Origin: Hirudinaria manillensis | Taxonomy: Eukaryota > Annelida > Clitellata > Hirudinida > Hirudinidae | Assembly: GCA_034509925.1 (NCBI GenBank) | Contig: CM067528.1 | Span: 1,409,501 to 1,473,500 of the forward strand | DNA: 64,000 bases | Reading direction: 5' to 3' | Part shown: positions 19,179 through 63,975 of the stretch, piece by piece | How the letters are laid out: each line of letters begins with the position of its first letter | How positions within the stretch are numbered: position 1 is the stretch's first letter | Made by a program: the position numbers and the translations under genes | The notes under the pieces: generated by a model | Database searches by the model: none | Seen by the model: the letters and a program-made list of their open reading frames with translations, nothing else | What the model was told of the DNA's origin: nothing

Positions 19179-21655
19179 ATGTTTGCTATTATAGCTTTAA
19201 TAATCGTTTCTTGTTCTTCAGGTCAATTATTTTTGTTTTGTTTAAAATTAATTATTAAAATTAATGCAATGAATTGGTGATATATGAGTGAATGAACGAA
19301 CGAACGAACGAACAAATGAATGAATGAATGAATAATACAGTTCTTTTGCGTTTTTGGAATAAAATATTTCTTTTCCAGTCTCTGGAGATTTGAAAAAGAA
19401 TTACGTACTTAGGGCTGACACTCTTCCATTTGATGAAGGAACCGTGAGATCTTAAAAATGTTTTAATCGATCAATTTGGTAAATAACATTTAAAAATTTG
19501 TAGGAATTTAAAGATAAATACACCTATAAATCACTGATATTATTGTAAAATGTAATTTACAATGTGTGATTTTGTGAAAATTTATTTTTGATGTCACGTT
19601 TCAGGATCTGCAAGTTGTCATGAACAGTTGTTCTGAGTACAGAGGCACCCATCAGGTTGTGCATAATTGAATGTTTACAATTTTTGATAAAATAATTAAT
19701 TAAGCATTTATAATTAACTAATTAGCTACAGATTTTTTGCTTCAAGTTACGAAATTTACTTGCAATTAAATAAAAATATAAATATTCATCTGTGAGAAAA
19801 ATATATCGATTAAGATTACACAGAATGCACTTTGCATTTTACTGGTGATTTGTCCAACGTGATTTGTTGACATCACTTCCGGCTAAGTGACTATATTCAC
19901 TAAAAATTTGTAATAAAGAAACAGATTAATAATTTATTTTTTATATTATTTTATATGTTAAATTGTTAATAATTAAAATATCTATTATTATATTATAATA
20001 CAATGTCATATTTAACAATATAATATAAATAATACATAAAAATGACAATATAAACAACATTAACAAAATAGAAAATAACATGATAATTATAATTAAACAA
20101 ATATTTATTAATATATTAACAATTATTAATTAAAAGTAATTAATTTATTTATTAAAGATTTATTGCCATTGATAGATCGACGTTGTCCTACCAACGCAAA
20201 ATTATGATCCTGAAAAGCCATCTATCGACAGATTGATAATCCACGTCGATGTAGCCGGTAAACTCACCTCGAAGCCAATTCTTCTCGGTTTTGGTAAATT
20301 TTAAATTTTATTTCATTATATTAAATTTCTATTAATCTAAATTAATATTAATATTAAAATTAATATTAATAATAAATTAAATTTATATTATATTACATAA
20401 GTTTTTAAAAAATCACGTGAAAATCCCAAAAGATGCACTCGACAGATGAAAGTGATGATTTTCTTTCTTCAGTTCTTGTTAACGTTTGGAATAAATCATT
20501 AATTGCAAAAATATGTTAATTAATTAATTTATTGATAATCAATTCTTAAATGGATTTTTAATTAATTAATTTATTTATTATATTTTAAATAATTAAAATT
20601 ATCTTAAATCTAAGATATTTGAAATAATTACAATTTAAAATTATTATAAATTAATAGGTTATAATATAATTAAATTTAATTAATTTATTTATTACCAAAT
20701 ATAACTTTATTAATCTGTATTTAAATGATTTATTTAATAATCACTCCCTGTTAGGAATTATTGGAATAAATGTTCGAGATGATAGCTGGAAGTGACGTCA
20801 GATGTTTAATGATATTGAAAGAATGATGGTGTGAGCATGTGAGTGTGTGAGTGTTTTGTGATTGGTTGTGGTTCACAATTAACTTGATTTTATTTTTTTA
20901 AAAATCCATTTTTAGTTCCAAACGTCAAATTAGTCGGCAATTTGGTCGGAAAAGTAGGTCGTGTCTTGGATTTTTTAAATTTTAAATTTTCTACTTTACA
21001 AAATAATTTATATTTTATAAAATATTTTCCCTGAAAAGATATAAAATTAAATAACATCTCATTAAATATCTCAAATGTATATAAATTACAATTGATTATG
21101 TATTGAGAAAAGATTTTACTATTTAATAAAACAATTATTACGTAACTCATTGAATTTAATACATTAATATAATAATTTAAGCATTACACGGAGGCAAGGT
21201 CTGTTCTGAAGGATCTCTTTCCGAGCGAAAAAGTGAATGCGACCTTTTCTTTATTCATTTTCATTGTAAATTTTTAAATCAAACAATCCTCGAATGCATT
21301 TCTTTTGAATGTCTAATTCATCCATTAATTCACCCATGAATTGAATTGAATTTAGAGGAAAACATCCCTAGACACCATGATTAGAAATTGGTCACTCATT
21401 CACCCAATCACCAAGAACCCTATAACCCTGTAATCCTGTAACCCTGTATCCCTATAAGATTATAACCCTGTAATCCTGTAACCCCGAGTACAGATCTACG
21501 TAACCGATGGCAGTACAGTCCTTCACTCTGAGGGTAACGAACGTGGACGATCGTTTTACCTCCTGACGGACAAAGATGGCGTGGTAGTCAACAAGATTGA
21601 ATTTCGTTACCCCTTCCTCTTTCCACAGGAAGGGACTTGTTATCAATTGAAGTGA
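19179..21655 (+). CDS. Secreted two-domain potato-inhibitor-I-like protein (gene G)
   Basis: Exons: 19179..19221, 19379..19443, 19605..19655, 20176..20293, 20916..20953, 21182..21232, 21494..21655; 528 nt, 175 aa. Exon 1 encodes a 14-residue signal peptide (MFAIIALIIVSCSS). The mature protein has two copies of one module. Domain 1 is diverged but keeps the strand IDRLIIHVD and ends KPILLG. Domain 2 has KLVGNLVGK, a helix exon HYTEARSVLKDLFPSEK, then a loop GSTVLHSEG and the strand FYLLTDKDGVVVNK. This matches the potato inhibitor I order (W/F..LVGK, helix, P.V, loop, RV.V.VD....V...P). Exon lengths 43, 65, 51, 38 and 51 equal those of K1-K6, proving common descent. Likely extracellular serine protease inhibitor; inhibition is not proven. 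Confidence 0.82.
19289..19335. repeat. GAAC/GAAT tetranucleotide repeat
   Basis: About eleven tandem four-base units (gaac then gaat) in intron 1 of gene G. Confidence 0.85.
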
Positions 21656-22170
21656 TTGCAATTTAACTCCTGAGCTAACTATCGTCTGCTTTATAAGCGA
21701 CCTAAAGACCATTACGATACCATTTTGATACCATATTATTCAAATTGATTTTTAATTTTTAAACTAATTTTTAAATTTTTATTTTCAACTTTAACCTGAA
21801 GTCGAAAACGAACGAGTCATCTCCAATGCTTTGACAAAGCTTTCTGTGTTAATAATTATATTGATTAATTGGTTGGTAATTAGTTAAGTAATTAATTGGC
21901 AGGAAGTCGATTTCTTCAGGCATTTGCTTATTCCTCTCTGTTGGATATTGTTGATTTTATTTGCCCATATCAATGCATAATAATTTTTCAATTTTCTTTT
22001 TTTTCTAAAAATTTGTTCACAAAAAATCATTAAAAAAAATGAGCAGATTTGAATTTAATTTCTAACCTTTCACAAGTAAATGTACTGGTGACGATTGAAA
22101 TTTGAAAATTCAAATAATTCACAACTGAATATTTCTTAAATTTGTTTTATTAAAATCTTTGAAATGTTAC

Positions 22171-22255
22171 CCTTTTGGCGTTCAGGATTAACACCCAATG
22201 TGATCAGCATGGAGACCAAAGCGCCAAAAAGTACCAAAACGATAAAATTTGACAT
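22171..22255 (-). pseudogene. Orphan signal-peptide exon, copy of PAN-D exon 1
   Basis: An intact 85-nt exon (MSNFIVLVLFGALVSMLIT and on to NPERQK) with ATG and a GGGTAAC donor, nearly identical to PAN-D exon 1 at 26262..26346. No PAN-coding exon lies downstream on the minus strand before the end of gene G at 21655. The flanking homology to the PAN-D locus runs from roughly 22140 upward and stops inside the PAN-D intron, so a duplication carried exon 1 but not exon 2. Probably non-functional. Confidence 0.75.
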
Positions 22256-23065
22256 TTCCATGGTGATACTTTTTATATTATTCTTAGAGCCTTAACAACA
22301 AACTAAACTTTTATTATTTTTAGTTATTATTTTTTATTATAAGTAATTATTAACAGTTTAGTCTAACCTATTAATCACAGCTCTCATCTTGAATCTCCCA
22401 CAAGAGCAATTAAGCTAATATTCTGAACATAAAAGTATTCAACCCTGCTCCAGAAACAGTTTATTCTTGCATGTTCTGAGGTCTTGTTTGACTCATAAAT
22501 TAAATTAAGATTGAAAAATAATTTAAATTAAGAAAATTAAATTTCCTAAATATTAAAAAGCCTGGGCACCTATAGACGAGCCTTAACAAGTAATGAGTTT
22601 ATCGAAATCATTTGATATGTTTTCTTCTTCCTAATCAATCTCATTAAGGAATAATTCCGAGTCATTATATTTGTGATTGATCGATAGTTAAAGCTGATGA
22701 TTTGCGATAATGACTGCCATAAATCGTCCACACAAGTTCCCATAAAATCCTTGTGGATAATGCTTTGTAACTTAGGGAAATATATTCATGGATCATTTAA
22801 TCATGCAGATTAATCATGAAAACTTCATGTCCATCGGGATTCTAAGTAATTTCAATATTCCATGACGTTGAAGGCAGTTTTGTCATCATTTAAACATTTA
22901 AAGAATTCATTTCAAACACAATGCACGAAGCAGTCCGGCCACTTTATTTACTAGAGTTCATTTGCAGTTCAATAGAGTACAACAGTAAGAAAAGGTCAAA
23001 GGTTGTACTGTAAACAACATTAAATTTCTTAAAATAAACGTTCAAGAAGCAATTCTTTCCCTTTT

Positions 23066-24246: not shown

Positions 24247-24927
24247 TTACAGACAGATATTATAATAGAGGTTATAGGTACCAGGTCTGGCCCAGACTTT
24301 GCGCAAATTATAGGTCCTGTTATTAACGTAGCAAATGTCGTACTCGTGATGATAGAAGATCATTCTGCAATGCTTTATGAGCTTGCACCTCTCTATGCAA
24401 TCCTCCACAGTTTTCGCATTCTTAAAGGTAAAGTGAGTCAAAGGAATTTCGCCAGTCTTGTTATGTTTTAGCCAACACCCTCCTGGTATTTGACCGTTCA
24501 CGTTTCGATTTCCTCCTTGAGTGGCACATCGGCAATTATAACAAATTAGTACAAATAGAACGAAAAAATTTAAAAGATTCAAATTAATTTATGAAACACG
24601 CTTGGGGCTCTTTATAAATAATTTATTATTATTATTATTATTATTATTAAAGTTGTTATTATTATTATTATTTTTAGAAAATTACCTTTTGTTTGTTTGA
24701 ATAAAAGCGAAATGAAACGATCATTTACCGTTGTTAATAAAGAAACCCCAAACGAGCACCAAAATCCAGACACAAGAAGCGTATTTCTGAAAGCATTTTC
24801 AATCGCATTTATTTATTTATTTAATTTAATTTAATTTAATTTGTAAAATTTAAACACTTAAACAGAATAAATGAATAATTTAAAGAATAATTAATTAACA
24901 ATTTAATTTATTTAATTAACCTACCAT
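24247..24927 (-). CDS. Short secreted PAN-like protein (PAN-C)
   Basis: Exons on the minus strand: ...24927..24925 (ATG), 24786..24729, 24515..24247; 330 nt, 109 aa. ATG abuts a GTAGGT donor. Exon 2 (58 nt) encodes the hydrophobic signal KYASCVWILVLVWGFF. Exon 3 begins GGNRNVNGQIPGGCW and carries CIERCKLIKHC, then ICYVN and the terminal NICL: the same six-Cys plan. An alternative reading is an unspliced 111-residue open frame starting at 24582 with MNLLNFFVLFVLICYNCRC, which also resembles a signal peptide; the spliced model is preferred because its exon sizes and phases match PAN-E and PAN-F. The real product could use either start. Confidence 0.7.
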
Positions 24928-25897: not shown

Positions 25898-26346
25898 CTA
25901 CGAGTGAACTGCACTTTCACCACTGCTTTCCCTTTCATGGCAGATATATTGAAAGTAAAGTATGTATCGTCCATCTCCACCTATACCAACCAAGTCGATG
26001 TTTCCGAGGCTTGAGTGGCACTCTTGACTAACGTCATCGTACAAGATGTATCTGCATCCTAATATGTGTGTGCACATTCTCTTGCAAGACAGCAGCGTCG
26101 GTTGATACTCCATGTTAAAGTTTCCTTCAGGGAGAGTCGAAGTTCTTCCTTGGGCCATCCAGCAAACTTGAAGTTTTATTAAAATTAAACTTTTTTTTTA
26201 AATTAATTTTTTGACTAAATGTTTCTTAAATTTGTTTTTATTAAAATCTTTGAAACGTTACCCTTTTGGCGTTCAGGATTAACACCCGATATGATCAGCA
26301 TGGAGACCAAAGCGCCAATAAGTATTAAAACGTTAAAATTTGACAT
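25898..26346 (-). CDS. Short secreted PAN-like protein (PAN-D)
   Basis: Exons on the minus strand: 26346..26262, 26166..25898; 354 nt, 117 aa. Exon 1 encodes a signal peptide (MSNFNVLILIGALVSMLIIS). Exon 2 holds the PAN-like module: VCWMAQ, CKRMCTHILGC (C-x3-C-x5-C), ECHSS and YFQYICHE, followed by a short Ser/Glu tail. Unlike its neighbours PAN-C, PAN-E and PAN-F it has two exons and an ordinary ATG inside exon 1. The intron is only 95 nt. A second copy of exon 1 lies at 22171..22255. Confidence 0.8.
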
Positions 26347-27089
26347 TTCGATGCTGTCGAGACAACCCAATTCTTAGTGCTTTAGCTTTTTATAACAAAC
26401 TAAACTGATTTGGAAAATAATAAAATAATGCTGACAAGTATTTATCAACTGATTAATTACAGCTGTCATCTTGAATTGGCAACAAAAGCAATTAAGTTAG
26501 TCTACCGAACTTCAAATTTGAAATGATTAAATTTTGACAGTTGTTGCTAAAACTTGATTGTAAAAGCAACCTATCACCGTCACAGTATCTTTAAAACTGT
26601 TATTATAAATTATAAAATTAAGAAAATTAAATTTCCTAAATATTGAAAAGCATGGGCACCTACAGACGAGCCTTAACAAGTAATGAGTTTATCGAAATCA
26701 TTTGATATGTTTTCTTCTTCCTAATCAATCTCATTAAGGAATAATTACGAGTCATTATATTTGTGATTGATCGATAGTTAAAGCTGATGATTTGCGATAA
26801 TGACTGCCATAAATCGTCCACACAAGTTCCCATAAAATTAATGTCACTAATCGTGAGATCCTTGTAAGATAATGCTTTGTGACTTAGGTAAATATATTCA
26901 TCGATCATTTAATCATGCAGATTAATCATTTTAATTTTTGAGTACATGTCCGTTCCGTTAAATATATATAGTTCAGCAACTTACATTAACAAGCTACTTT
27001 TGAGTACATTGTCAGCAGAGTTGTCCTTGTATTAAGAAGTTTCAAACATTCAAAAACAAAAACAAAAAAAAACGGTGCCAAAACGATGC

Positions 27090-27642
27090 TTAGCAGGAAT
27101 AAAAGTAGATATTGAAATTGCCAGGACTAAATTTGATGGTTCGAGGCTTCACTTCGATTTCATTCAAGTAGCACAGGTTTAAGCCGTGATCGAAGAAAAC
27201 AAATTTGCAATGTTTAATATTGGTGCACAAATGCTGGCAATGACTGAGTTTTTTCGGACGCCTTACAATGAAATGCGTACTTGGAATGCTGGCTTTCTTA
27301 CTTTGAACTCTCCAGCAAGTAACGTTCCCGATATCTGAATTTTATTGTTTGGATTTTATTTGAATTTATCTCCTTAAAAACATTTTGTAAAGGAAAATCA
27401 TGATATTCAAGATAACGTTGATCGTAACTAACATGTCCATACTTTTTGGCTTTGAATGGATTATGATAATTCTAACTAATACTAACCACTTGCATTACAA
27501 GCATTCAACAATAGTAACAAAAGTCCGATCCAAATTTTAATATCCTGAAAAGATTTGTTTAATCCAAATATTTATCGAATTAAAATCGAGATGCATTACA
27601 ATTGGAAATAATTTTCGATATTTTGAACAATAATCTTACCAT
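27090..27642 (-). CDS. Short secreted PAN-like protein (PAN-F)
   Basis: Exons on the minus strand: ...27642..27640 (ATG), 27544..27487, 27334..27090; 306 nt, 101 aa. The start codon again ends exon 1 and is followed by GTAAGA. Exon 2 (58 nt) encodes DIKIWIGLLLLLNACNAS, a clear signal peptide. Exon 3 has VTCWRV, CQHLCTNIKHC, LCYLN and terminal YFYSC. It is the closest relative of PAN-E (both keep VFFDH before the fifth Cys) and arose with it by segmental duplication. Confidence 0.75.
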
Positions 27643-32207: not shown

Positions 32208-33896
32208 ATGTTGAGGGGGTTTATTGTCTTCGGATGTTTCGCTGCCATAGGTAGGGTATCTTTTGATTTTAGACAGGACAATCAACAAGAATAAAACGAT
32301 TTACATTGAAAAGAACTGGAATATAATTGCATTTGTACTGAAATCAATTGATAAATTGAAAAACTCAATAAATGATGTTGATGCTCTGACATTATGCAAA
32401 ATCCACCCAGCGAAAAAGAAACAGCTGGCCTACAATTATAATAATTAATGCTCTTGTCACAGGCTGAATATCATGGCTTTTTAAATAATTTGACCTTGTT
32501 ATAATCAGCAATTATAGTCTGAAAATTATGCCGAATTTGATAATTACGGATGCTTAGATAATATCTAAAATAAAACCCTTCACCAGCAACAGCCATGATT
32601 GCCCTCGACCCTGGGTTCCAATCAGAAGAAGTAAAATGGCCTCAATTCATAAATCAGGTAATAAAAGTTATTTATTTATTATTATTATTTTTTTCGTGTA
32701 ATAAACTTTTCATATTGAAATTATGACCTTCATACTTCATATAATACTTCAATAGCAATTTGAATATTGCCAATTTTTCTGAAAAAAAAGAAACAAAAAT
32801 AAAACTGAACAATTTTATTTTTCAAGACGAGAATAAAAGTTCAGGAAGAGCTTTCTAAAATCTTTCCAAACGTGGAGGTACAATCCGTTTTTACATTTTC
32901 CATGCAGACTGTAATGAGTACATTTTCTATATTCCTATTCCTGTAGCAACAAAAGGACGTATTTTAATTTTAAATTTCATTTTCATAACAGTTCAAAGTA
33001 TTCTCAGTTAAGGACCCAAACAGATTGATGGAAGAATTCTTCTCAAATAGAATCAAAATCGTTGTTGATGACAACGACATTGTTGTGGAAGCACCTGTTT
33101 TCTTTGGACAAAGTAGGAAAAATATTCTACTTTTGTTTTGAGCAAGTATTCAGAAATACTTTTAAATTTTAAATACGTTAACTACATTATTTTGCTTTTT
33201 ATTTATTTTAGTATTACTTAAAAATTGTGTATTAGTCATTGTTTCTGATTAATATGCGAAGTTTACATTTAATTATGCCAGAGCCAGATTTGACTTTTGC
33301 CCAGAAACTCTTAGGGAAGGTATGAATTAAATTTGAGCCGACGAAACGATTTTTTAAAATCTAAGGTAGACAGCAATTGATCACCTTAACATGAATTATT
33401 GATTAATTTAATTTAACTATTTAATAATAATTCGAACTTATTTCCAAGAATGAAGTCTGATTTGGATTATCAATATCCGGAAGATATTTTGTTTAGGAAC
33501 AGATAAGATTTAGAATTCTTTGAATTTATTACATTACATTGTTGCAGCTTAGAGTAAAGTCCATTTTGTTTTGACTTGATTTCCACATTTTCAGAATTGG
33601 AAAGTGGTGGAGGAAGCCGTAATCAAAGCCTTGCCCACTGCCACGGTACTTACAAATCTTTTTGTTAGCTAGACAAATGGTATCATTTAATGATCTATTC
33701 ACAAAGTCATTTAACCATATGTTTTCGTATTTATAAAAGCTATTTACATTAAATCCAGGTTGTTGTGGAGCAAAATGGAACCAGGATTAGCACCCATAAT
33801 GATCAGGGAGGCAACTACGTCCTCGTCGTTGCGGATTCAGATAACATCGTCAACAAAATGCCGGTATATGTCAGGGTGCCCAAAAGTAAACCTTAA
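32208..33896 (+). CDS. Secreted two-domain potato-inhibitor-I-like protein K1
   Basis: Exons: 32208..32250, 32593..32657, 32827..32877, 32992..33112, 33282..33319, 33595..33645, 33759..33896; 507 nt, 168 aa. Signal peptide MLRGFIVFGCFAAI. Domain 1: KWPQFINQ, helix exon TRIKVQEELSKIFPNVE, strand NRIKIVVDDNDIVVEAP. Domain 2: PDLTFAQKLLGK, helix exon NWKVVEEAVIKALPTAT, loop GTRISTHND, strand NYVLVVADSDNIV ending YVRVP. WP-x-F/L, P-N-V and R-I-x-I-V-V-D-x-N are typical of potato inhibitor I proteins such as eglin c. Exons 5-7 are close to K6. Intron 1 differs from K2-K6 and has no LINE relic; the upstream region also lacks their shared promoter block. It appears to be the older end of the array. 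Confidence 0.85.
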
Positions 33897-37071: not shown

Positions 37072-39369
37072 ATGTTAGCGAAATACTTCGTCTTTCTGTG
37101 TTTATTCAGCACCGGTTAGTTATTCAGTCTTCTGCAAGTGGTGACCACGTGTTCTGGAGGGTCGAAAGTTATGGAATTGTGGAATGCTGCATTTAACATG
37201 ACCTTGGACAATTTTGTTACACAGGCATAAATCGTGGATAATACGTCGATGTTCGATTGTTTTAAGTCAAAATTGTTGTAGTCTGTTATGGTATGGCAGT
37301 GTTCTGAAGCCGGATTTAGAAAGAATTAGAAACGAAATTTTAAAAATTATGCCGAATTTCATAATTACGGATCCTTAGATAATATCTGAAAAACCCTTGA
37401 CCAGCAACAGCCATGATTAAAAGAAAACCTGGGTTCCAATGGGAAACATTAAAATGGGCTCATTTAGTAAATCAGGTAATACATTAATTAATGGAGAGGT
37501 AGTTATTTAGGTTTAAGGATGACACGATTTGAAGCAGGAAATTGTTGAGAATTTAGTGACATCATATGGTAGTGAGTTCCAGGGTTTGATAATGCGGCTG
37601 ATGAAGAAATGCTGCCTGCAACTGGTGGAGCATTTCTCTTGGCGTAAGCAAAGGGGTTGACCACGGGTACTGGAGGCTAGAAAGTTATAGAATTGTGGAG
37701 TGCTGCATTTAACATGACCTTAAACCATTTTTTGGCACTGGCATAAATCGTGTATAAGACGTCGATGTTCGAGTGTTTTAAGTCCAAGTGGTGGTAGTCT
37801 GCTATTTAATGGCAGTGTTCTGTAGCCGGATTTAGAAATATTTAGAAACTAAATTTTTTAAATTATGCCCGTTCAATTTGACACTTTAAAATTCACCCGA
37901 CGTTGAAATAATTAAGCAACATCTAGCGAGACAGAAACAGCTGAGGTACAATTGTAACGTTTCACGCACACATCACTTGACTTTAGATAATATTGTCTTA
38001 TAATTAGAAGAAATAAAAAGTATGCTAATTTGATAAATACGAATCAAAATACAATGCAATATCTAAACGTACTATTATCCAGCCGATGGCATGGTAGTAC
38101 TCAAACCTGGATTCGAGATAGAACACCATTCATGGCCTCAATTTTTACATCGGGTAATATGTCATTTATTTTCATTTTTTTGCATATTCAAATCTAAATA
38201 TTTTGACATTGAAAAACTTATATTATAATATTATAACTGAATATTTTTCTAGCATTTTGAATATTATTCATTTTCTAAAGAAAAACTGTACTATTTTATT
38301 TTTTAAGCCAAGAGTGGAAGTCCAAAGACAGCTTTCACAAATATTTCCCAACGTAGAGGTTCAATCCGCTTATAATTTAATAGAATTTAAACTCTAAAGA
38401 ATTTAATTTTTTACCTCTTTTTATTTTAAAAGTTCATTTAATAGTTCGTAGTACTACATGCGTCACAACCGCAATCCTCTGCTGTCCGTTTAGAGCGAAT
38501 CACAATCCTTATTGATGACAGAGACATTGTTGTCGATGTCCCTTCTTTCTACGGAGAAAGTAAGAAAAAGATTTTCTCGATTCTAAGTTAATTATCAATA
38601 AAAAAATAATACAAAAAAATTAAATACCCATGAATTTATATTATTTATGTATTGTTATGCTAATTTATGTTAATTTTTAATTTATTTATTCCAGGGCCTG
38701 ATTTCACTTTTTTTCAGAAACTCTTAGGCAAGGTACAAATTGATTTTAAGCGGATTTTTTAAATTCATGCCAGACAACAATTGATCACCTTTGAGCGAAT
38801 TATTGATTTTAATAATAATTTGAACTTATTTCCTTAAATGGACTCTGATTTGGTTTATCAATATCCGTTATCATCTTTATTGGATTCATTACATTGCATT
38901 ACACTCAAACCTGGTCAAGCATATTACATGTCTATCACAAATGGCGGTGTATTACATTCAGTTAGGTCATATACATTTATTCGACTAATTGACTACTGAT
39001 ATTAAACGGAAATTTAGAGGACATACAATGTATATGGATTTCATAGTTTACCTGATTTCCACATTTTCAGACATGGAACGTGGTGGAGTACGCCGTGATG
39101 AAAGCCTTGCCAACTGTCTCGGTACTTAAAGATCTTCTTGTTAGCTAGACAAATGGTATCATTTAATGATCTATTCACAAAGTCATTTAACCATATGTTT
39201 TCGTATTTATAAAAGCTATTTATTTTAAATCCAGGTCGTTGTGGAGCAAGATGGCACCAACATTAGCAGATCTCATCTGGGAGGCAACTATGTCCTCATC
39301 TTTGCAGATCGCGATGACATCGTCAGAAAAATGCCGGAGTATGTCAGGGTGCCCATATATTACTATTAA
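37072..39369 (+). CDS. Secreted two-domain potato-inhibitor-I-like protein K3, chimeric
   Basis: Exons: 37072..37114, 38083..38153, 38308..38358, 38445..38559, 38695..38732, 39071..39121, 39235..39369; 504 nt, 167 aa. A second candidate exon 2 lies at 37411..37475. Both exons 2 take phase 1 and leave phase 0, so they cannot be joined to each other but either can join exons 1 and 3. Domain 1 is the most diverged of the array (SWPQFLHR, PRVEVQRQLSQIFPNVE, ERITILIDDRDIVVDVP). Domain 2 is ordinary (PDFTFFQKLLGK, TWNVVEYAVMKALPTVS, loop GTNISRSH, NYVLIFADRDDIV). The head (promoter, signal exon, first exon 2, LINE pieces) is K2-like, whereas the body resembles an older lineage, so unequal crossing-over probably joined them. 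Confidence 0.78.
37137..37320 (-). mobile_element. LINE relic fragment in K3 intron 1 (first copy)
   Basis: The 5' half of the intron-1 LINE relic, joined abruptly to the start of the intron after ttcagtcttctgcaag; the 3' UTR half of the element is deleted compared with K2. Confidence 0.7.
37488..37845 (-). mobile_element. LINE relic fragment in K3 (second copy)
   Basis: A second copy of the same relic (starting aatggagaggtagttatttagg) between the two candidate exons 2 of K3, with several indels. Two copies in one gene support an unequal exchange inside the relic. Confidence 0.7.
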
Positions 39370-45887: not shown

Positions 45888-46540
45888 GCTGGAATCTGTC
45901 AGTTAAGAGAATGGAGTTCCGTGACGTTCTTAGGAATAATAATTTAAAAATATACTTATATTACTCAGTATTTTGTTTAGCATTTCATTTCTTATTTCGG
46001 CCATTTATTTTGCCCACAAACTCTTGTTTAATGCTAAATAAATTACTTTGAAATTGTTTGACCAGAGATAATTAATTATGAGATTAAGAAATTTTGGAGA
46101 CGATTAAAGTCATCTGCACTAAAGATGTTGTTTATTTAATCAGAGCGTGTTCGTTATAACATGTTAAGGATTATTAAACTGATAAAAAGACAAAAAGATT
46201 TCGACCAGTACTGACCTTAATTAATAATAATTAGCAATAGTGATAAAGAACCACACAGTGTGCAACACGCAAGGGTGTTTTAATAACAATTTTTAACATT
46301 TTTTAAACTTCATTATCAATTATTTGCACCAGTGCAACTGTTTACATACCATGGACAAACTTTGTTTACGTAAGATATCAAAAACTGATCAATAAAATCA
46401 ATTGATGAAATAATCAATTGTAAATTAAAAATTAATAGTATATAATGAATAAAGTGTAATACAATATAATGTATAATTGATTAACTCATTCAACTTAACA
46501 TACAAAGGTTGATAATATGTATAATAATAATAATAATAAT

Positions 46541-47902: not shown

Positions 47903-48806
47903 TAATAATAATACATAATAATAGTTCATTTATATAGCCCCGTATGCGTAGCGTCGGAGGCGCTTTGTGTGAATCTTCTGTTTCCGACTAATTTGGAAGG
48001 TGTTTCCTGAAGAGGTGGGTCTTCAGGTGCCGTTTGAAGAGCTCCAGGGATGGCTGGGCTCTTACAGATGGGGCTAGATCGTTCCAGATGGCAGGAGCGG
48101 CTAGTGAGAAGCTTCTATTGACGATGGTCGCCTTGTGAACCGGTTGATGGTGGCAGATGAGCGGAGACTCTTGGGTGGGTGGCGGCGCTCTATGAGGCGA
48201 TGGAGGTAAGGCGGATTTGATGTCGCGAGTAAGCGATAAGTTATTATGGATATTTTGAATGAGATTCGGGCGGTGATGGGTAGCCAATGAAGTTCTCTCA
48301 GGCACTCATAGCTGTCAAGGATCGAATTGAGTAATACGAGCTTGGCTAACTTGTTTTGAATGCGTTGAAGGTATTGGATCAGGGAAGCAGAAGATCCACA
48401 TAGAAGAGAGTTGCAGTAGTCAAGGCGAGATAGAACCAGCGAGCGGGCGAGTGCAGATGTTGTGTCAACGGAGAGGAGTGGGCGGATTTGCCGTATAGCC
48501 CAGATGGGATGGTTGCTGGCTTTAACTATGGAGGCTATGTGTTGTCTGAAGCTCAAATGAGAATCAAACGTGACAATAAGAAGCTTTAGAGTAGCCGAGG
48601 AAGGGAGAGGAGTTCCTTCTATCTCTGCAGAGGACGTAGGGTTGAGAGCTTTAATGTTCGTGGGTGTCCCGATGAACATAAGTTCAGATTTGTGGGGATT
48701 AAGCTGAAGGAAGTTCACGAGATGCCAGTGGTTTATAGCCTTGTTACACTTACGTAAGTTGTCAAGCTGATCAGAAAGATTATGGCTGGAGAGTGCGCAG
48801 TACAGG
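47903..48806 (-). mobile_element. 5'-truncated LINE ORF2 fragment (reverse transcriptase C-terminus)
   Basis: Minus-strand frames 48871-48101 and 48305-47988 together show the end of a CR1/L2-type ORF2: LQLNPHKSELMFIGTP, LSFRQHIASIVKASNHPIW, RSLVLSRLDYCNSLLCG, LRELHWLPITARISFKI and, in the second frame, APAIWNDLAPSVRAQPSLEL and FKRHLKTHLF. A frameshift separates the two parts. The catalytic YADD region is missing: homology starts just after it. The 3' end is followed by an ATT-rich tail near 47905-47925. The matching empty site is at about 40070 in the K3-K4 spacer. Confidence 0.85.
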
Positions 48807-49075
48807 CTGTTGTTTGTATTAGGCAAATGTCCTCTGAAAGTATTTAACCAATCGCTTTGAAATTTTGACACATGATAGTGCTCGATTAGGCGAGTATTTC
48901 TATACAGGTTTCATATACATATATGCCGCAACTACATCAGCTAAAAATACGCTTTAATCGAAAATCCTGCCATCCATTGGACGTGAAAAAGACGAACCAT
49001 TAAATTTTTATTAAAATAATAAAATTAAATAATTTTATGACATTATTATATTAAATTTATCTTTGGTTTGTTTCC

Positions 49076-50063: not shown

Positions 50064-52061
50064 ATGTTAGCAAAATACTTCGTCTTTCTGTGTTTATTCA
50101 GCACCGGTTAGTTATTCAGTCTTCTGTAAACTTTATTTTATTCCAATTTCAGTTCATTAAGTGATTGTATTAACTAAGAAATTACAATCATTTATTTAAT
50201 TATTTATTTTTCTAAACAAAATGAAGGGTCATCCGATGACCTCTTACACATTTTGTAGTAGCGTTAGACAACAGAAAATAGACTGAAACGGAATCAAGCA
50301 ACATTGTCAAAAGAAAGTCAAGTTCACTTAATGGATAGATAACTACCTATACACGCATGATTTGAAGCAAGAAAATGTTGAGCAGTTAGTGACATCATAT
50401 GGTAGTGAGTTCCAGAGTTTGGTAATGCGGTTGATGAAAAAATGCTGCCTGTGACTGGTGGAGCATTTCTCTTGGCGTAAGCGAAGGGGGTGACCACGGG
50501 TTCTGGAAACTAGAAAGTTAGGGAATTGTGGAGTGCTGCATTTAACATGACCTTGAACCATTTTCTAGCACAGGCATAAATCGTGGATAATACGTCGATG
50601 TTCGAGTGTTTTAAGTCCAAGTTGTTGTAATCTTCTATGGTATGGCAGTGTTCTGAAGCCGGATTTAGAAAGAATTAGAAACTAAATTTTAAAAATTATG
50701 CCGAATTTTATACTTACGGATCCTTAGATAATATCACAAAAACCCTTGACCAGCAACAGCCGCCCTTGCCCTCGATCCTGGGTTCGAATTTGAAGAAATA
50801 AAATGGCCTCATTTAGTAAATCAGGTAATATATCATATTTAATAATTTATTTATAATTATTTTTGTATACATCGCTATCAAAAACTTTTCATTTTGAAAT
50901 TACGAACTTCAAAATTCAAAAAACATTTCAAAGGCAATTTGAATATTGCCAATTTTTCTGGAAAAAAAACCAAAATAAAATTGAACAATTTCATCTTTCA
51001 AGACCAGAATTAAAGTTCAGGAATTGCTCTCTAAAATCTTTCCAAACGTGGAGGTACAATCCGTTTCTACATTTTTAATGCAGACTGTAATGAGTACATT
51101 TTCTTTATTCCTATTCCTGTAGCAACAAAAGGACGTATTTTAATTTTAAATTTCATTTTCATAACAGTTCAAAGTATTCTCAGTTAAGGACCCAAACAGA
51201 TTGATGGAAGAATTCTTCTTTGAGAGAATCAAAATCGTTGTTGATGACAACGACATTGTTGTGGAAGACCCTGTTTTCACTGGATTAAGTAGGAAAAACA
51301 TTCTACTTTTGTTTTGAGCAAGTATTCAGAAATACTTTTAAATTTTAAATACGTTAACTACATTATTTTGCTTGTTATTTATTTTAGTATTACTTAAAAA
51401 TTGTGTATTAGTCATTGTTTCCATTTAATATGCTAAGTTTACATTTAATTATGCCAGAGCCAGATTTGACTTTTGCCCAGAAACTCTTAGGGGAGGTATG
51501 AATTAAATTTGAGCCGACGAAAGGATTTTTAAAATCTATGGTAGACAGCAATTGATCGCCTTTATATGAATTATTGATTAACTTAATTAATTATTTATTA
51601 ATAATTCGAACTTATTTCCAAGAATGAAGTCTGATTTGGATTATCAATATCCGGTAGATATTTTGTTTAGGAACAGATAAGATTCAGAATTCTTTGAATT
51701 TATTACATTACATTGTTGCAGCTTAGAGTAAAGTCTATTTTGTTTTGACTTGATTTACACATTTTCAGAAGTGGAAAGTGATGGAGGAAGCCGTGATCAA
51801 AGCCTTGCCCACTGCCAAGGTACTTAAAGATCTTTTTGTTAGCTAGACAATTGGTATCATTTAATGATTTATTCACAAAGTCATTTAACCATATATTTTG
51901 GTATTTATAAAAACTATTTACTTTAAATCCAGGTCGTTGTGGAGAAAGGTGGCACCAGGATTAGTAGCAATAATCAGGGAGGCAACTATGTCCTCATCAT
52001 GGCAGATTCCGATGACATCGTCAGAGAAATGCCGGTATATGTCAGGGTGCCCAAAAGTTAA
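50064..52061 (+). CDS. Secreted two-domain potato-inhibitor-I-like protein K6
   Basis: Exons: 50064..50106, 50760..50824, 51003..51053, 51168..51288, 51458..51495, 51769..51819, 51933..52061; 498 nt, 165 aa. Signal peptide MLAKYFVFLCLFST. Domain 1: IKWPHLVNQ, TRIKVQELLSKIFPNVE, ERIKIVVDDNDIVVEDP. Domain 2: PDLTFAQKLLGE, KWKVMEEAVIKALPTAK, loop GTRISSNNQG, NYVLIMADSDDIVREMP, ending YVRVPKS. It is a mosaic: the exon 3-4 region matches K5, whereas exons 6-7 are closer to K1 (EEAVIKALPTA, MPVYVRVPKS), suggesting gene conversion. Confidence 0.85.
50212..50675 (-). mobile_element. LINE 3' relic in K6 intron 1 (most complete)
   Basis: The best-preserved copy: a 72-residue frame at 50561-50343 keeps TRGHPLRLRQEKCSTSHRQ, then FFINRITKLWNSLP and CFKSCVYR before a stop. 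RGH..RL, then FF..R....WNSLP and a final FK is the standard C-terminus of CR1/jockey-type ORF2 proteins. The 3' UTR extends to about 50212. Confidence 0.8.
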
Positions 52062-53074: not shown

Positions 53075-55186
53075 ATGTCCGTCTATTCATTCCTTGTTCT
53101 TCCAACTTTGCTTCTGATGAAATTGGATCCAATTACAGCTTATCGTAATTAGTAGCATTACGTTTTATAGCTCGGACTTCCAATGCATAATATGTCGAAA
53201 AAATAATAATTTTGTTACAATTTACATTTTACATAAAGTTACAATTGAAATTAAAATTTACATAAAGTTTTCAAATTTGTTCTATAATAAGAAATGGTAA
53301 TTCTTATGGTTCAATTACGTGCCCAGTAAGTCGATTAAACGTTTTGATTTAGAATAATATGAATTAATAATAACATAATGAATATTTAAACAATTAAATT
53401 TATGCAGCTTATTGTGATTCGAAGAAGCCACGTGAGGGATTTACATTCTTACAAACGTGGTGGTCGGAGTTCGTGCTGCTGGTGAAAATTAATAAATTAT
53501 ATGAATATCAATTAATGATTAGTATTAATACTTCATTTATTAATTAATATATCTTAATTATTTCATTCATTTACGTAAATATACTCTTAAATTAAAATAA
53601 CATGTGAAAATAACGGTTATTCGATTTTTACTTCATTATTTATTTTAGAGTGTTGAAGAAGTCAAGCTAATATTCAGAAACGAGTGGCCACACGTAAAGG
53701 CAAGTGAAGGAGTTGATATGCAATAAGTAAACTTGATACATTTTACCAATATCATACAATAGGTATTACAAAAGGGTAACAAATATTTTTGACAGTAATA
53801 GTAATAATAATAATAATAACAATAATAATAATAGACATTATGTTGTAATTACGTTTAAAAGAATTACTGTAATTTAACGGACTGCAAATCAGTTGTAATA
53901 CATTCGACAATTGTAATACAATAATGTAATGAATCATTTATTCCTTAAAAGATTGACATGTCGTGCTATTTGGCATAATCCTTACAATCGCTGTAATTTT
54001 GATTTATTTGTAAATTCTGTATAATTCGACAGTTCAGAGTATATGAATTGCATCATAACGATTCCGAGATGTGTCTTGGCCACATAAAAATCATCGTCGA
54101 CTGGTATGGCGTTGTCGTGGTCCCACCTAGTTACACGGCCTATGGTAAATTTATGACGAATTTTTTCTTCTTTCTTAAATATTTTTTTCTAAAAATTTTC
54201 CCCCTACCCAATGCATAATTTTGTGAGTTTAACATAAAGTTGTTTATTATTTGTAATTGATTTATTATTACGTGACTGTATTAATAAGTATTGAATTACT
54301 TTAAGTACTGTTGAATCCCCTTTTGTCTCTTTTTGGTTGTGCTTTACATAATTGCAAATCATTAAGTAATGGCTTTCATTAACGACTTAAGTGTTTAGAA
54401 AATATTACAATACCCTTACAAGAACACCTCTAAAATATAAGAATTACAATTATAATAACACTATAATAGCACGTAATAATAAAATCCATAACAATGTTTC
54501 TAACAATTTCATTCAGAACCAGATATGTCGCTAATCCGTTTTATGGCAGGAGAGGTAACATGGAAATTATGTGGATGCTTAATTTTTAGTTGTCAGTTGA
54601 ATGTTATTTAAATGTTTTGTAATTGAAAATAATTCAGTTTTCGGTGAACCAACGTCTCTCAGAAGTTCATTTTTTCGTAATTTTTCCAGAACCTCACGAA
54701 AGTCATTGAGCGAATTCTGTCTAAAATTCCTTCCATCAAGGCAGGTTCCAGTTTATTTTAATCTTATTTTTAGGCTGAAATTTGTTTTGTCATTCGACAT
54801 GAAACGTCGATTAATTTTGACGTTGGTGAATGAACTCATTCAAGAGTAAGGTCGTTTTCTAAATATGACTTAAAATGTACAATTAAGTAATTAAATAAAT
54901 AGTCGAGAATACATTTTTAATTACGCAATATATTATATCATTTTATTTATAATTCACAACGCCAACCATAATAAATTTATTTATTAAAAATTAAACATTT
55001 TATTAATAATAGATTGGAGTTCAGTTCGCCGGCGAGGAGATAATGGCCGTGAGAAATACAGAAGAAAGACAATATATTCTCATAAACGTTGCAGACAATT
55101 ACAAAGTTTACTCTCCACCCGAGTACATAAGATTCCCAAAAGACATTAGGACTAATTTAGACTTTAATTATAAGGATAGGGGTTAG
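53075..55186 (+). CDS. Secreted two-domain potato-inhibitor-I-like protein L1, with GC-AG introns
   Basis: Exons: 53075..53144, 53408..53481, 53649..53699, 54033..54144, 54517..54554, 54690..54740, 55013..55186; 570 nt, 189 aa. Signal peptide MSVYSFLVLPTLLLMKLDP; an in-frame ATG at 53048 would add nine residues, and a likely 5' UTR acceptor lies just before it. Domain 1: TWWSEFVLL, SVEEVKLIFRNEWPHVK, IKIIVDWYGVVVVPP, with Cys in CDSKKP and EMCLGH that could pair. Domain 2: PDMSLIRFMAGE, NLTKVIERILSKIPSIK, QYILINVADNYKVYSPP. Introns 3 and 6 begin GCAAGT and GCAGGT. The C-terminus has a 16-residue extension ending in a TAG inside the TTAGGG-type repeat. Confidence 0.83.
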
Positions 55187-55574: not shown

Positions 55575-55614
<40 letters not shown>

Positions 55615-56651: not shown

Positions 56652-58556
56652 ATGTCCGTCTATTCATTCCTTGTTCTTCCAACTTTGCTTCTGATGAAAT
56701 TGGATCCAATTACAGCTTATCGTAATTAGTAGCATTACGTTTTATAGCTCGGACGTCCAATGCATAATATGTCGAAAAAATAATAATTTTGTTACAATTT
56801 ACATTTTACATAAAGTTACAATTAAAATTAAAATTTACATAAAGTTTTCAAATTTGTTCTATAATAAGAAATGGTAATTCTTATGGTTCAATTACGTGCC
56901 CAGTAAGTCGATTAAACGTTTTGATTTAGAATAATATGAATTAATAATAACATAATGAATATTTAAACAATTAAATTTATGCAGCTTATTGTGATTCGAA
57001 TGAGACACGTGAGGGATTTACATTCATACAAACATCGTGGCCGAAGTTCGTCTGGAAGGTGTAAATTAATAAATTATATGAATATCAATTAATGATTAGT
57101 ATTAATACTTCATTTATTGATTAATATATCTTAATTATTTCATTTACGTAAATATATTCTTAAAATTAAAATAACACGTGAAAATAACGGTTTTTTGATT
57201 TTTATTTCTTTATTTATTTTGGATGTTGATGAAGTCAAGAAAATATTCAGTGATATGTGGCCAGACGTGCAGGCAAGTGAAGGAGTTGATATGCAATAAG
57301 TAAACTTGATACATTTTGCCAATTTCATACAATAGGTATTACAAAAGGGTAACAAATATTTTTGACAATAATAGTAATATGTCGGACAACAATAAGAATA
57401 ATTATATTGTAATTACCTTTAAAAGAATTACTGTAATTTAACGGACTGTAAATCAATTGTAATACATTCGACAAATGCAATACAATAATATAATGGATCG
57501 TTTATTCCTTAAAAGATTGACATGTCGTGCTATTTGGCGTAATCCTTACAATCGCTGTAATTTTGTTTTATTTGTAAATTCTGTATAATTCGACAGTTCA
57601 GAGAATATGCCTGGTCTCATAACGATACCGAGGAATGTTATGGCTACATAAAACTCATCTCTTCTTATGACCTCGTCATGGGCCCACCTAGTTACACGGC
57701 CATGGGTGAATTTATGACGAATTTTTTCTTCTTTCTTAAATATTTTTTTTCTAAAATTTTTCCCCCTATCCAAATCATAATTTTGTCAATTTAACATAAC
57801 ATTGTATTAATAAGTATTGAATTACTTTAAGTACTGGTGAATCCCCTTTTGTCTCTTTGGTTGTGCTTTACATAAGTGCAAGTCATTAAGTACAAGTTAA
57901 GAGGTTATTAATAATGGCTTTCATTAACAATTATAATAACACTATAATAGCACGTAATAATAAAATCCATAACAATGTTTCTAACAATTTCATTCAGAAC
58001 CAGATATGTCGCTAATCAATTTTATCGCAGGAGAGGTAACATGGAAATTATGCGGATGCTTAATTTTTAGTTGTCAGTTGAATATTATTTAAATGTTTTG
58101 TAATTGAAAATAATTCAGTTTTCGGTGAACCAACGTCTCTCAGAAGTTAATTTTTTTCGTAATTTTTCCAGAAATTCACGCCTCTCATTCAAAAAATTCA
58201 GTCTAAAATTCCTTCCATCAAGGCAAGTTCCAGTTTGTTTTGTTATTCGACATGAAACGTCGATTAAGTTTGACGTTGGTGAATGAACTCATTCAAGAGT
58301 AAGGTCGATTTTTAAATATGACTTAAAATGTACAATTAAGTGAATAAATAGTTAAGAATACATTTTTAATTACGCAAATCATAAATTTATTTATAAAAAT
58401 TAAACATTTTATTAATAATAGATTGGAGTTCAGTTCGACGACGAGCTGCCAATAGCCGTGAGAAATGCAGAAGGAAGACAATATATTCTCTTAGACGTTT
58501 CAAACAATTACAGAGTTTACTATCCACCCAAGTTCATAAGATTCCCAAAGACTTAA
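56652..58556 (+). CDS. Secreted two-domain potato-inhibitor-I-like protein L2, exon 3 acceptor damaged
   Basis: Exons: 56652..56721, 56985..57058, 57222..57272 (acceptor not AG), 57597..57705, 57998..58035, 58172..58222, 58422..58556; 528 nt, 175 aa with exon 3. Signal peptide is identical to L1. Domain 1: SWPKFVWK, DVDEVKKIFSDMWPDVQ, a CYGYIKLI strand. Domain 2: PDMSLINFIAGE, KFTPLIQKIQSKIPSIK, QYILLDVSNNYRVYYPP, ending RFPKT. Introns 3 and 6 both start GCAAGT. The exon 3 acceptor, AG in L1, reads TG here; exon 3 is 51 nt, so skipping it keeps the frame but removes the domain 1 helix. All other exons are open. Confidence 0.72.
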
Positions 58557-58581
58557 AGACAAGACTTTCTAATTTAGACTT

Positions 58582-59345: not shown

Positions 59346-60078
59346 ATGAAGCATTTCCTTTGGTTCACTGTATTATTGGCGGTGCTGGTGATGGTCATAC
59401 TACCGAAGTGGACCAGTTCACAGAGTGAGCAACATTAAATTTAATCAAATTTTGTCAAATTAAATACTAAAGTAATAGTAATAATATTACTATTAATATT
59501 ATTCACGTGACTCTTTCAAAATTTGTAACAAGCTCGAGACATTGCACCTCTGACTAAGAAAATGATGGGAAAGGTATTAAATTCTAGAAATTGCAAGTTT
59601 AATATGTTTTAATTTTTTTTACAAATTAACCATTAATTAATTAAATAATTTATTAATTCATAATTTTCTGCTGAAATATTGTCGGATTTAAATCCAATAT
59701 TTATAGAAATGGTGGCAAGCCGTGAAATTAGTCAAGGAATACCTTCCAAATGTCACGGTGGATATTTTTCTCTTCAATTTGTTTTCATTTGCATTAAAAT
59801 TATTTAAAAACTGCGGAGAAAATGACCTATATTGTATGTTACATGGTCTCTATAATTGCTCATTTGTTAGAAGTATACGATTTAAAATTAAAGTATTATT
59901 TAATCATTTAAATTTGTTAAAATGAAAGAATTTCAACCGCCAGGTGGCCGTTGAACAAGACAACAAACGAATCCACATCCGCTACGGGAGCAGTTGGAGT
60001 TACATGCTGTTGACAGCTGATGCCGATGACGTGATCAGGGAGTATCCCCTTTATGTCATGGAAATTAAAAACAGCTGA
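59346..60078 (+). CDS. Secreted one-domain potato-inhibitor-I-like protein (gene M)
   Basis: Exons: 59346..59424, 59533..59573, 59707..59757, 59944..60078; 306 nt, 101 aa. Signal peptide MKHFLWFTVLLAVLVMVIL. A single module: DIAPLTKKMMGK, the 51-nt helix exon KWWQAVKLVKEYLPNVT, then VAVEQDNKRIHIRYG and YMLLTADADDVIREYP. At about 70 residues the mature domain has the length of eglin c and other single-domain family members. Exon phases match one half of the two-domain genes, so it shows the unit from which they were built, or a derived loss of one domain. Confidence 0.83.
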
Positions 60079-60680: not shown

Positions 60681-61010
60681 TCTAAGTTTTGGCTCCCTTC
60701 TGCTCAAGTGTTCTAGACTAGCTATCGATCGTAAAAACCAATTATTCAATCTAACTGATATGAAAACATTACAAGCGTAAACTGGACTATGCTGACAGTC
60801 GTAAATGTACCTAGAAATAATGCTCAACAATCAATTCGGAACTTAATGAACCCCTCTAAAATGATTGCAATCTTTTGTCAGCAAAATTATTCATAGTGAT
60901 GGTGATAACTTCAAATTAAGTATGTTAAACTGTGTTTAGCGACCAAAGGCAAAACGCTACGGTATTCAACATCATCAGTTTTCGAAAAGAAGTTTGGAAA
61001 AGTATTAGAA

Positions 61011-63142
61011 ATGAAGTGCTTTGTTTTTCTGATTCTTTTCCTATGCGCAACTGGTTGGTTCTTGAACATATTTAATCAGATTTTAAATTCACTCATTCAC
61101 CTTGCTACGAGAAGCATTCCATCTTATTAGTTGTTAAGGCAGTGGAATAGATATCTTTGTAAAAGAATGTAATTTAATTCATTTTATTTCATTTTTATAT
61201 TTAAAATTTTGTTTTGATAAGTAATATTTCAAAGTTGCGAAATGTTTTGCCAATTGCAGTTGTATTGTTTCAAATGGCACATTTAAACTGTGTCATATTT
61301 CGATCCATTAAACGGACTATGGTAAATCAATAATGAGTGAATGGATAAATAAATATTAAATAAATAAATGTAATATAATAATTTATTTTACATTGTGGTA
61401 ATTAAATTCAGAATATTTATGTTACTATTAAATAAAAAATCAGGTGTTTCAGACATTGTCATGGGTGACAATCTCTACAAAGCTGTAGTAACGAGATATC
61501 ATGCTTTAGCTAATAAGGTTAATATAATATTATGAATAAAATATATATAATTAAAATATTTTTAAATAAATTCATTATTAGTATATATATATAAATATAA
61601 ATTGACATGAGATATTATAAATAAAGAATTATTTATTTTTTAATAAAGTTGATGTTTTTAATGCTAACATTATAAATATATAAACTTTCCTCAGCCTCTC
61701 AAAGAAGTGAAAAAGAATCTGACAAGGATTTACCCAAAGGCGGAGGTGGGTGCTTTATGATTAGATTTTGTTTTATAAAATGCTAAAAAAAAATTTTTTA
61801 TCAATTTAAAATTAATTATATATACACTTGTTGTTTTATAAGTTGATTACTTTTAATATTTATCTATTTAATATATTAATTCATTAATTCATTCAGAAAC
61901 AACTAATTTGCTTTTGAATAAAGTTGTTAGTCACAGCTTGGAACCATAACGATCCGTATTTCCTGAAAATAAAATTCACAACACATTTCACTTCACAAAA
62001 AAAAAATTAAAATTAAAAGATCGATGTAATAAACAAATAAATTAAATAATTAATGCAAATAATATAAAAAGATTTATTTAAAAATAAAATTATATTAGGT
62101 CGTTTTGGCATGGAATAAAGTAAAAAGACCATTGTCGCCTTATTGGAACAAGATTGTGATAAAACTCAATTCTAAAAACATCACTGTTGGTTCACCCATG
62201 TACGTCAGTAAAGGTTTGATTGTTTGAATTTGCTTCTTAATTGTAAATATTTTTCCGTAATTCTTAATTCATTTTTATTATCATAACTTCATAAATTCAT
62301 AAATTTTTTGTTTTGTTTATATTTTCCCTGGCTTTGGTAACAGTTTTATATATATATAACGTTATATGTATTTATAGCAATTATACAATATATGATATAC
62401 AACAACCGCAAATATAGTATATATATATATTTAATATTATTAAATAATCTGTATTTTAACTCCAGTGCCCGATTTGAAATTTCTCAAACCTTTTGTTGGC
62501 GAGGTATTTAAAGTTTATATTTTACGTTAATGGTTAAAGAAGAATTTTAGAAGTTTAATTCTCACTGATATATGACAACCACGAGTTGCTTTACAATTTA
62601 ATGTTAATTATATAAAATTACTTATTTAATACCATTGAGTTTGTTATAAATAATTTATTTTTATAACTGCAGTCTGTCGGGAAAGCCATAGTTAAAATAA
62701 TATATCGCCTTCCAGACATGGGGGTTTGTGATCTTTTTAATTTATTTGTTTATTAATTATAAATCTGTCAAAACAATCATTGGCATGAGTTGCTTCGCGA
62801 CAGCTTTCCTGACTTTTCTTCAGTCCCTCGCAAAGCAATTATTCAAGTTAATATCAAAACTTCAGCTTGCAAATTCAAACTAGCAATCTATACTGACTAC
62901 AGTATGTTCTTCTGAAGTTAATAAATAATATATAGTCAAGAGAATTGAGACCAATAATAATGATGTATAATAATATAATAATATATATATATTATTAGAT
63001 AATAGTCAAGAGAATTGAGACCAACGCAGTGGTTTGGAGGAACCGAACAGAAACTGATTCCCACATTCTCCTGAAAATTTCCAATGACGGCATTCTTCGT
63101 TTAGAACCGGAATATGTTGACAACAGCCAAAAGGGACGTTGA
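61011..63142 (+). CDS. Secreted two-domain potato-inhibitor-I-like protein (gene N)
   Basis: Exons: 61011..61053, 61444..61517, 61695..61745, 62099..62213, 62466..62503, 62673..62723, 62999..63142; 516 nt, 171 aa. Signal peptide MKCFVFLILFLCAT. Domain 1: VVTRYHALANK, PLKEVKKNLTRIYPKAE, NKIVIKLNSKNITVGSP. Domain 2: PDLKFLKPFVGE, SVGKAIVKIIYRLPDMG, a basic loop KRIETNAVVWRNRTE, HILLKISNDGILRLEP. The whole protein is basic, whereas K1-K6 are acidic. The first bases of exon 7 (gtcaagagaattgagacc) are also present once more in intron 6 near 62934, a small local duplication. Confidence 0.82.
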
Positions 63143-63920
63143 CGATAAAAATGCAACTATAACTTATAAAATGAAATAATTTACCCTTTTAACTTTTAAG
63201 AATTTTTTTCCTAATACTGAATTAAAATTTTAACAATAAAAAGTAACTTATATCTGGCTTCCAAAAGCTTTTCAAAAGCAAGTTATGAGTTATTAACCTT
63301 TATTATTATTATTATTATTATTATTTATTTTATTGGTTATAATGTTATTATTTATTACCCTAATTTCTGCGAATCTTATGGATTTTAGAGTTAATTTTAT
63401 ATTCGGTTTACACTGAACAATAAGTCAAATAATTTATCCAATAACTTGAATTAATCACAATCAAATATGTAGAGCCCTATTATTAATCACTGTAAATTTT
63501 ATTATAATATTTTTAATTTGCAGAGCACCATACACATAGCGGCGTTTGTGACAAAAAATAAACTTAACGAGCTTAAAATGCACATTGATTTGCTGATCAA
63601 TAAATAACAAACAGAATATTTGGATTTGTGATATTCTAAGCAGACAAACAGATACCAAAAGTATGTTCCGATTAAACAAAGTATTAGCTGCTTGATTGAT
63701 CACGATTTCCTGCATCGATATTGTACATATGTGTTTGTTTACTAAACATCTAAAACTCAAAATGTTTGTTTTAATCCAATCATTTGAAACAAATTTGTTT
63801 GAAAATAATAGTAAAGAATTGCTTCAACTAAACAGACAGCAAAAGAAATGTTTCTGAATGAACCTATTTAACAATCTACAAATATCCGTTCGCATTTCAG
63901 TAAACTTTGATGAAGATTTA

Positions 63921-63975
63921 ATGAAAAAGATGAAAACCTTTGCGATAATAGTCAGCATCAGTTATTTTGCTACAG
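63921..63975 (+). CDS. First exon of another secreted family member (gene O, truncated by window end)
   Basis: ATG followed by a hydrophobic signal peptide (KKMKTFAIIVSISYFAT) and a phase-1 donor GTTACT, exactly as in the other inhibitor-like genes, where the signal exon ends G|GT in phase 1. The upstream region matches 55510-55870. The rest of the gene lies beyond the window. Confidence 0.65.

Follow-up and report, generated by a model that had tools for sequence, protein, structure and literature searches.

A tandem array of predicted two-domain, eglin-like genes in the leech Hirudinaria manillensis

The subject of this analysis is an array of genes for putative secreted relatives of the leech protease inhibitor eglin c, which stand in tandem on one chromosome of Hirudinaria manillensis, in a window of 64,000 nucleotides (nt; C3:1409501-1473500; this is the whole stretch of DNA analyzed, and positions below are counted from its first letter unless a contig is named). 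In this window, we spliced 11 genes, namely G, H, K1, K2, K4, K5, K6, L1, L2, M and N, ten of which code for two domains and one (M) for a single domain. The two-domain genes are made of seven exons, i.e. a signal-like exon followed by the exons of domain 1 and then those of domain 2, three each. Exons 3, 5 and 6 measure 51, 38 and 51 nt, respectively, in 10/10 two-domain models, the intron phases are 1,0,0,1,0,0, and the first exon of each product is, as judged by eye, hydrophobic and signal-like. The exon borders were picked by eye with the family layout as a guide, and therefore the exon lengths are not blind. The splice dinucleotides provide a check on the models that is partly independent of the choice of borders. 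In particular, an AG acceptor is present at 62 of the 63 introns, the exception being exon 3 of L2, where there is none at the homologous place, while the donors are GT at 59 introns and GC at four (exons 3 and 6 of L1 and L2).

The first member on the plus strand, G, has its exons at 19179-19221, 19379-19443, 19605-19655, 20176-20293, 20916-20953, 21182-21232 and 21494-21655, a model that rests on its splice sites and exon lengths. It is followed by H, which lies on the minus strand (29632-29575, 29422-29352, 29218-29168, 28975-28855, 28781-28744, 28633-28583 and 28419-28279). All remaining members in the window are on the plus strand, beginning with K1 (32208-32250, 32587-32657, 32827-32877, 32992-33112, 33282-33319, 33595-33645 and 33759-33896) and K2 (34406-34448, 35079-35149, 35337-35387, 35502-35622, 35793-35830, 36001-36051 and 36157-36300). 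Next comes K3 (37072..39369), a damaged copy recognized by its frames and exon matches, with a signal exon, exon 2 in duplicate, exon 3, an interrupted and shortened exon 4 from which the part for the loop is missing, and exons 5-7; this gene is not intact. It is succeeded by K4 (40888-40930, 41566-41636, 41773-41823, 41938-42058, 42229-42266, 42541-42591 and 43013-43144), K5 (43899-43941, 44590-44654, 44834-44884, 44999-45119, 45290-45327, 45595-45645 and 45759-45887) and K6 (50064-50106, 50754-50824, 51003-51053, 51168-51288, 51458-51495, 51769-51819 and 51933-52061). The exons of L1 are at 53075-53144, 53408-53481, 53649-53699 (GC donor), 54033-54144, 54517-54554, 54690-54740 (GC donor) and 55013-55186, and those of L2, which may be a pseudogene, at 56652-56721, 56985-57058, 57222-57272 (no AG acceptor, GC donor), 57597-57705, 57998-58035, 58172-58222 (GC donor) and 58422-58556. 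The single-domain gene M, of the domain-2 type, occupies 59346-59424, 59533-59573, 59707-59757 and 59944-60078, and N is found at 61011-61053, 61453-61517, 61695-61745, 62099-62213, 62466-62503, 62673-62723 and 62999-63142. Finally, the signal exon of O is at 63921..63975, with the rest of the gene running beyond the window to C3:1475228.

How coherent is this family? For 13 models (the 11 of the window, together with O and P), we built profiles without the group under test and compared the scores with those of 1000 shuffles, in eight such tests. The 13 models gave scores from 35.9 to 162.1 bits, and no shuffle in any test exceeded 13.0 bits. Even the weakest member, G, scored 35.9 bits against 4.4 bits for the best of its 1000 shuffles, and L1, L2, M and N scored 86.9, 83.1, 47.6 and 81.3 bits, respectively. 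A search of the genome (148,429,096 bases in 23 contigs) with K6 gave at least 28 matches, all of them between 1438 and 1481 kb on C3. Downstream of the window lie two intact members of the two-domain type, O and P, followed by at least two further partial members, namely one with several exons, in which we noticed no signal exon (L010 positions 7210-8734), and one on the minus strand that is seen only in part (L011 about 1030-1881). In the preliminary description of this DNA, twelve loci with a seven-exon, two-domain layout had been proposed, together with the start of O. The start of O is confirmed by its signal exon, and the layout recurs with nearly identical lengths and phases in ten models; M, with four exons and one domain, departs from it. 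Likewise, the number of loci needs to be qualified, as 11 could be modeled, K3 is broken and L2 lacks one splice acceptor, and the orientation of the array has been corrected for H.

As to the family itself, the curated Pfam cut-off of PF00280 (potato inhibitor I) is 24.5 bits, and it is exceeded by six of the 11 window models, i.e. K4 (39.3 bits, E 1e-9), K5 (34.4), K1 (32.6), K2 (31.8), K6 (31.3) and H (28.8), as well as by P outside the window; L1 (14.5 bits) and O (16.1 bits) fall below it. In every match, the best stretch lies in domain 1. At loose thresholds (E up to 10, or up to 1), PF00280 matches K1, K4, K5, K6 and P in a further stretch, whose place is not given by the table. Domain 2 holds the best stretch in none of the genes, which were scanned as whole proteins except for the lone domain 2 of M, itself without a match. 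When compared with the Protein Data Bank (PDB), a domain-1 profile (11 of 12 rows, with G left out) matched potato-I inhibitors in 39/48 rows, with a best E of 0.00094, and a domain-2 profile (13 rows) matched entries of chymotrypsin inhibitor 2 (CI-2) in 35/43 rows, with a best E of 0.0034, the top chain for both being a CI-2 hybrid protein. These PDB rows are mostly variants of one protein and are therefore not independent, K4 as a single query reached only E 0.059, and the modest match of domain 2 to CI-2 would point to remote kinship only. The PDB evidence is therefore modest, and the case is carried by the Pfam matches and the exon layout. The earlier assignment to potato inhibitor I (MEROPS I13) is in this sense upheld, as is the two-domain, seven-exon layout, by the PF00280 and CI-2 profile matches and by an exon layout like that of canonical eglin genes, but domain 2 is without the canonical inhibitor signature; the profile check of each half, likewise, came out for domain 1 in six of 11 models and in no case with the best match in domain 2. 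What has to be given up is the idea that the family is unusual for an animal. Namely, the animal is a leech, and since eglin c comes from leeches, the family is expected there. The window genes appear to be divergent two-domain relatives of eglin c, and not an animal outlier. There is no conserved cysteine column in alignments of the window proteins. We also considered the H. manillensis elastase inhibitors (HMEI) as a possible identity for these genes and rejected it because the HMEI proteins are cysteine-rich, with about ten conserved cysteines according to the accessible parts of two reports (PMC10671345, PMC10887747).

The two halves of these proteins resemble each other. Aligned with hhalign, the domain-1 and domain-2 profiles match with a probability of 87.7 and an E of 3.4e-6. 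In both halves of 10/10 two-domain models, and in M, an exon ending at the 'GK' position is followed by a 51-nt helix exon and by a loop/strand exon. In other words, an eglin-type exon unit occurs twice per two-domain gene, behind a single signal-like exon. In a tree of 36 domain rows, which has few columns, as the tool itself warned, a branch with support 98/89 keeps all 13 domain-2 rows together on one side, and a second one, with support 100/100, does the same for the 11 eglin rows. Domain 1 requires two changes on this tree, in which G and N have long branches and the relative closeness of domains 1 and 2 to the eglins is left unsettled. We infer that one within-gene duplication preceded the growth of the array, which the tree allows without proving. 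Domain 2 is a copy that has diverged strongly and does not show the signature of a canonical inhibitor.

The same genome also contains a canonical eglin-type cluster of apparently about 15 loci (C2:13367393-13412609), which was found with an eglin c query. A pattern search, in which chance candidates are possible, gave a 51-nt helix exon in 10 of these 15 loci, a 48-nt one in one and no convincing candidate in four; reading by eye of a gene near 13376 kb showed an exon with DVVGK at its end, followed by 51 nt and then by the loop exon. The P1 residues of the 15 loci are D, A, S, F, L, M, K, R, H, M, N, M, K, D and E, i.e. 11 different residues, and three of the loci have an acidic P1 (Glu or Asp) together with a complete loop core. 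The window genes are like eglin c and the canonical C2 genes in fold family (by profile), in the absence of conserved cysteines, in the layout around a 51-nt helix exon and in forming a tandem cluster. They differ from them in having two domains (except for M), in the length of the loop, which is altered in most cases, in the lack of a G-x-P-V-T core, in the acidic P1 that most copies of domain 1 carry, and in a domain 2 that never holds the best PF00280 stretch. With CI-2 and plant potato inhibitor I, the window proteins share profile matches to both domains but only low sequence identity; those proteins are, moreover, single-domain. Antistasin and LDTI, two other leech inhibitors, are cysteine-rich and have folds unrelated to that of eglin. 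They resemble the window genes in that an inhibitor domain has been internally duplicated in a leech gene family, for twofold internal repeats are described for both in the accessible text of two papers (PMC10671345, PMC10887747).

Several counts of eglin genes are available from published work, in each case from those parts of the papers that are openly accessible. A survey of the H. manillensis genome, based on an assembly of 148.59 Mb in 22 scaffolds (13 chromosomes of 14.76 to 8.30 Mb, N50 11.46 Mb, mitochondrial genome 15,581 bp), lists four (PMC10671345), three Whitmania species have 11, 5 and 2 (PMC11897028), and H. medicinalis has seven copies of eglin C (PMC7303139). Furthermore, two other leeches express eglin c transcripts 28 and 51 percent identical to eglin c (PMC3631404), and eglin-like salivary sequences with low homology to classical eglin are reported from medicinal leeches (Hirudo), also in I13 (PMC7191736). 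The section text of the latter mentions neither a two-domain form nor an array, and these sequences may or may not be of the same family as the window genes. In the literature within reach, which excluded most subscription papers, figures and supplements, we came across no account of an array of two-domain eglins.

Some information about the evolution of the array comes from comparing K1, K2, K4, K5 and K6. Exons 2-7 of these genes differ at 0.149 per site and their introns at 0.070, and variable columns make up 131/461 ungapped exon positions versus 108/749 intron positions (Fisher 5e-9; 0/5000 circular-shift controls as large). Codon positions 1, 2 and 3 differ at 0.147, 0.125 and 0.171, each above the introns, and the exon excess is therefore not limited to amino-acid changes. 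Exon 2 is high (0.258), while exons 3 (0.090) and 5 (0.071) are near the intron level. Simple positive selection on the K genes is not shown by the mature parts, with a dN of 0.155 and a dS of 0.179. Only in the pair L1/L2 does dN (0.239) exceed dS (0.141; bootstrap 0.98), one of the two being the possible pseudogene; their first 18 codons are identical, and their introns are 94 percent identical in a pairwise comparison from which introns differing more than 1.3-fold in length were omitted. Accelerated exon change is known from snake-venom genes, as far as the accessible text of one study goes (PMC2711939), and the K genes of the window are alike in this respect. An alternative to accelerated exon change is gene conversion that has evened out the introns. 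Could the array, on the other hand, consist mostly of decaying, unexpressed duplicates? The broken K3, the missing acceptor of L2 and last-exon fragments near 40247 and 49100 would fit such a picture. That said, ten of the 11 models keep an open frame and have AG at every acceptor, even with coding sequences that are up to 22 percent apart among the K copies, and introns more alike than exons are unexpected under neglect. For this reason, we find general decay highly improbable.

In order to discuss what the proteins might do, one has to consider the reactive loop. Here, we take the loop-supporting basic residues (two arginines) to be at positions 51 and 53, and a canonical I13 loop to carry Thr at P2 and an acid at P1'. 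When the 12 domain-1 rows are aligned by their conserved basic region, the residue inferred as P1 is Glu in eight cases (K1, K2, K5, K6, H, O, P and G), Asp in K4, Leu in N, Ser in L1 and Thr in L2, i.e. an acidic residue in 9/12. At P1', Glu is found in 9/12 rows, Lys in K4 and G, and Ser in N, so that Glu-Glu stands at P1-P1' in seven rows; K2 carries Thr at P2. In domain 2, by comparison, neither supporting position has Arg or Lys in 13/13 rows. A gapless alignment of the K-gene loop to eglin was also tried and dropped; the exon junction puts two extra residues in the loop.

Overall, we consider it probable, judging from the sequences, that the array is a branch of the leech eglins (I13) whose secreted products have one active head, domain 1, and one altered one, domain 2. 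The two-domain form would have arisen by a duplication inside one gene, ahead of the expansion of the array. Its product would be secreted, and domain 1 would meet serine proteases with a loop resembling a substrate, in most copies with an acidic residue at P1. Domain 2 lacks the arginines that support the loop; it would not inhibit by the standard mechanism and would serve instead as a binding or structural partner, while the fast exon change suggests pressure from changing targets, be it host, prey or microbial proteases. It should still be noted that several observations speak against this interpretation. The Pfam scan of the spliced models gave no PF00280 match for G, L2, M and N, and the unrelated OppA3 appeared at E 0.0071 in the domain-2 PDB search, about level with natural CI-2. 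What is more, domain 1 has Arg or Lys in only 8/12 rows at position 51 and 10/12 at position 53, and the distance from the exon start to P1' exceeds that of eglin by two residues in 8/12 rows (the K genes as well as H, O and P) and by one in G, while it is the same in N and one residue shorter in L1 and L2; P1 is therefore an assignment based on the alignment. Finally, the 3' untranslated region (0.159) and the used part of intron 1 (0.130) of the K genes vary highly as well, and the exon excess is therefore not sharp.

Some of these features would also fit a fold that is kept while neither domain inhibits, the scaffold having been reused to bind host or self molecules. Namely, the Gly-x-Pro-Val-Thr core of canonical eglins is absent from 12/12 domain-1 rows, the loop length is altered in 11/12, P1 is acidic in most of them, and the basic pair is gone from every domain 2. 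However, the Thr at P2 of K2 and the prevailing Glu at P1' are features of a canonical loop, and the three C2 loci with an acidic P1 keep their full loop core, which leads us to regard a complete loss of inhibition as unlikely, albeit a serious possibility. At the other extreme, both domains could be active, which would make each protein an inhibitor with two heads of different specificity, comparable to the two-domain antistasin and LDTI of leeches (PMC10671345, PMC10887747, in the parts accessible). Each product does have two domains, and the second loose-threshold PF00280 stretch in K1, K4, K5, K6 and P could be domain 2. Nonetheless, with both supporting positions lacking Arg or Lys in all domain-2 rows, and with no PF00280 match for M, a double head strikes us as improbable. 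Returning to one active and one altered head, a more specific version of it can be put forward, according to which domain 1 would be fixed on an acidic P1, in contrast to the varied P1 of the C2 cluster, and would have acid-specific serine proteases as its dedicated targets (glutamyl endopeptidases of microbes, for instance, or a granzyme-like enzyme), domain 2 would be a binding module, and exons would change faster than introns as in venom genes. This version is speculative and, in our estimate, rather unlikely; our literature search found no paper joining glutamyl endopeptidase with potato inhibitor I.

Salivary inhibitors of leeches are drug leads, and the array adds 12 sequence-intact genes to the eglin family, i.e. 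nine two-domain genes and M in the window, with L2 and K3 excluded, plus O and P. Moreover, the 15 or so loci that the C2 cluster appears to hold exceed the four eglins given in the accessible text of the published survey (PMC10671345). The array is real and appears to be an unusual branch of a leech inhibitor family that is already known, with features that agree with this family and a function that is deduced from sequence. It offers a testable case in which one inhibitor fold would have been duplicated, with one half kept and the other changed, and in which exons change faster than introns.

The surroundings of the array deserve a brief description. The first 12 kb (1-12000) go from a G+C content of 0.49 through 0.42 to 0.30 in three 4-kb steps and have many overlapping frames close to their beginning; for five of the frames in 1-5 kb, there was no Pfam match at E 0.01, and Rfam at its gathering threshold gave nothing in the window. 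The open frames 46499-47506 and 48101-48910, between K5 and K6, have no Pfam match above the cut-off and are perhaps, as a guess, remains of mobile elements. Between G and H, three minus-strand frames (24247-24588, 25898-26197 and 27090-27341) match PAN_1 with 22.7, 23.1 and 27.4 bits (cut-off 21.4), the last of them also showing a weak, non-significant match to leech saratin (E 0.28), and these frames beside the array could possibly be genes of an antiplatelet type. Near them, a segment of about 700 bases is repeated at 77 percent identity (22124-22817 and 26214-26929). The genome also gave one partial match to the hirudin family, which at 33.9 bits is above the Pfam cut-off and contains one TAG.

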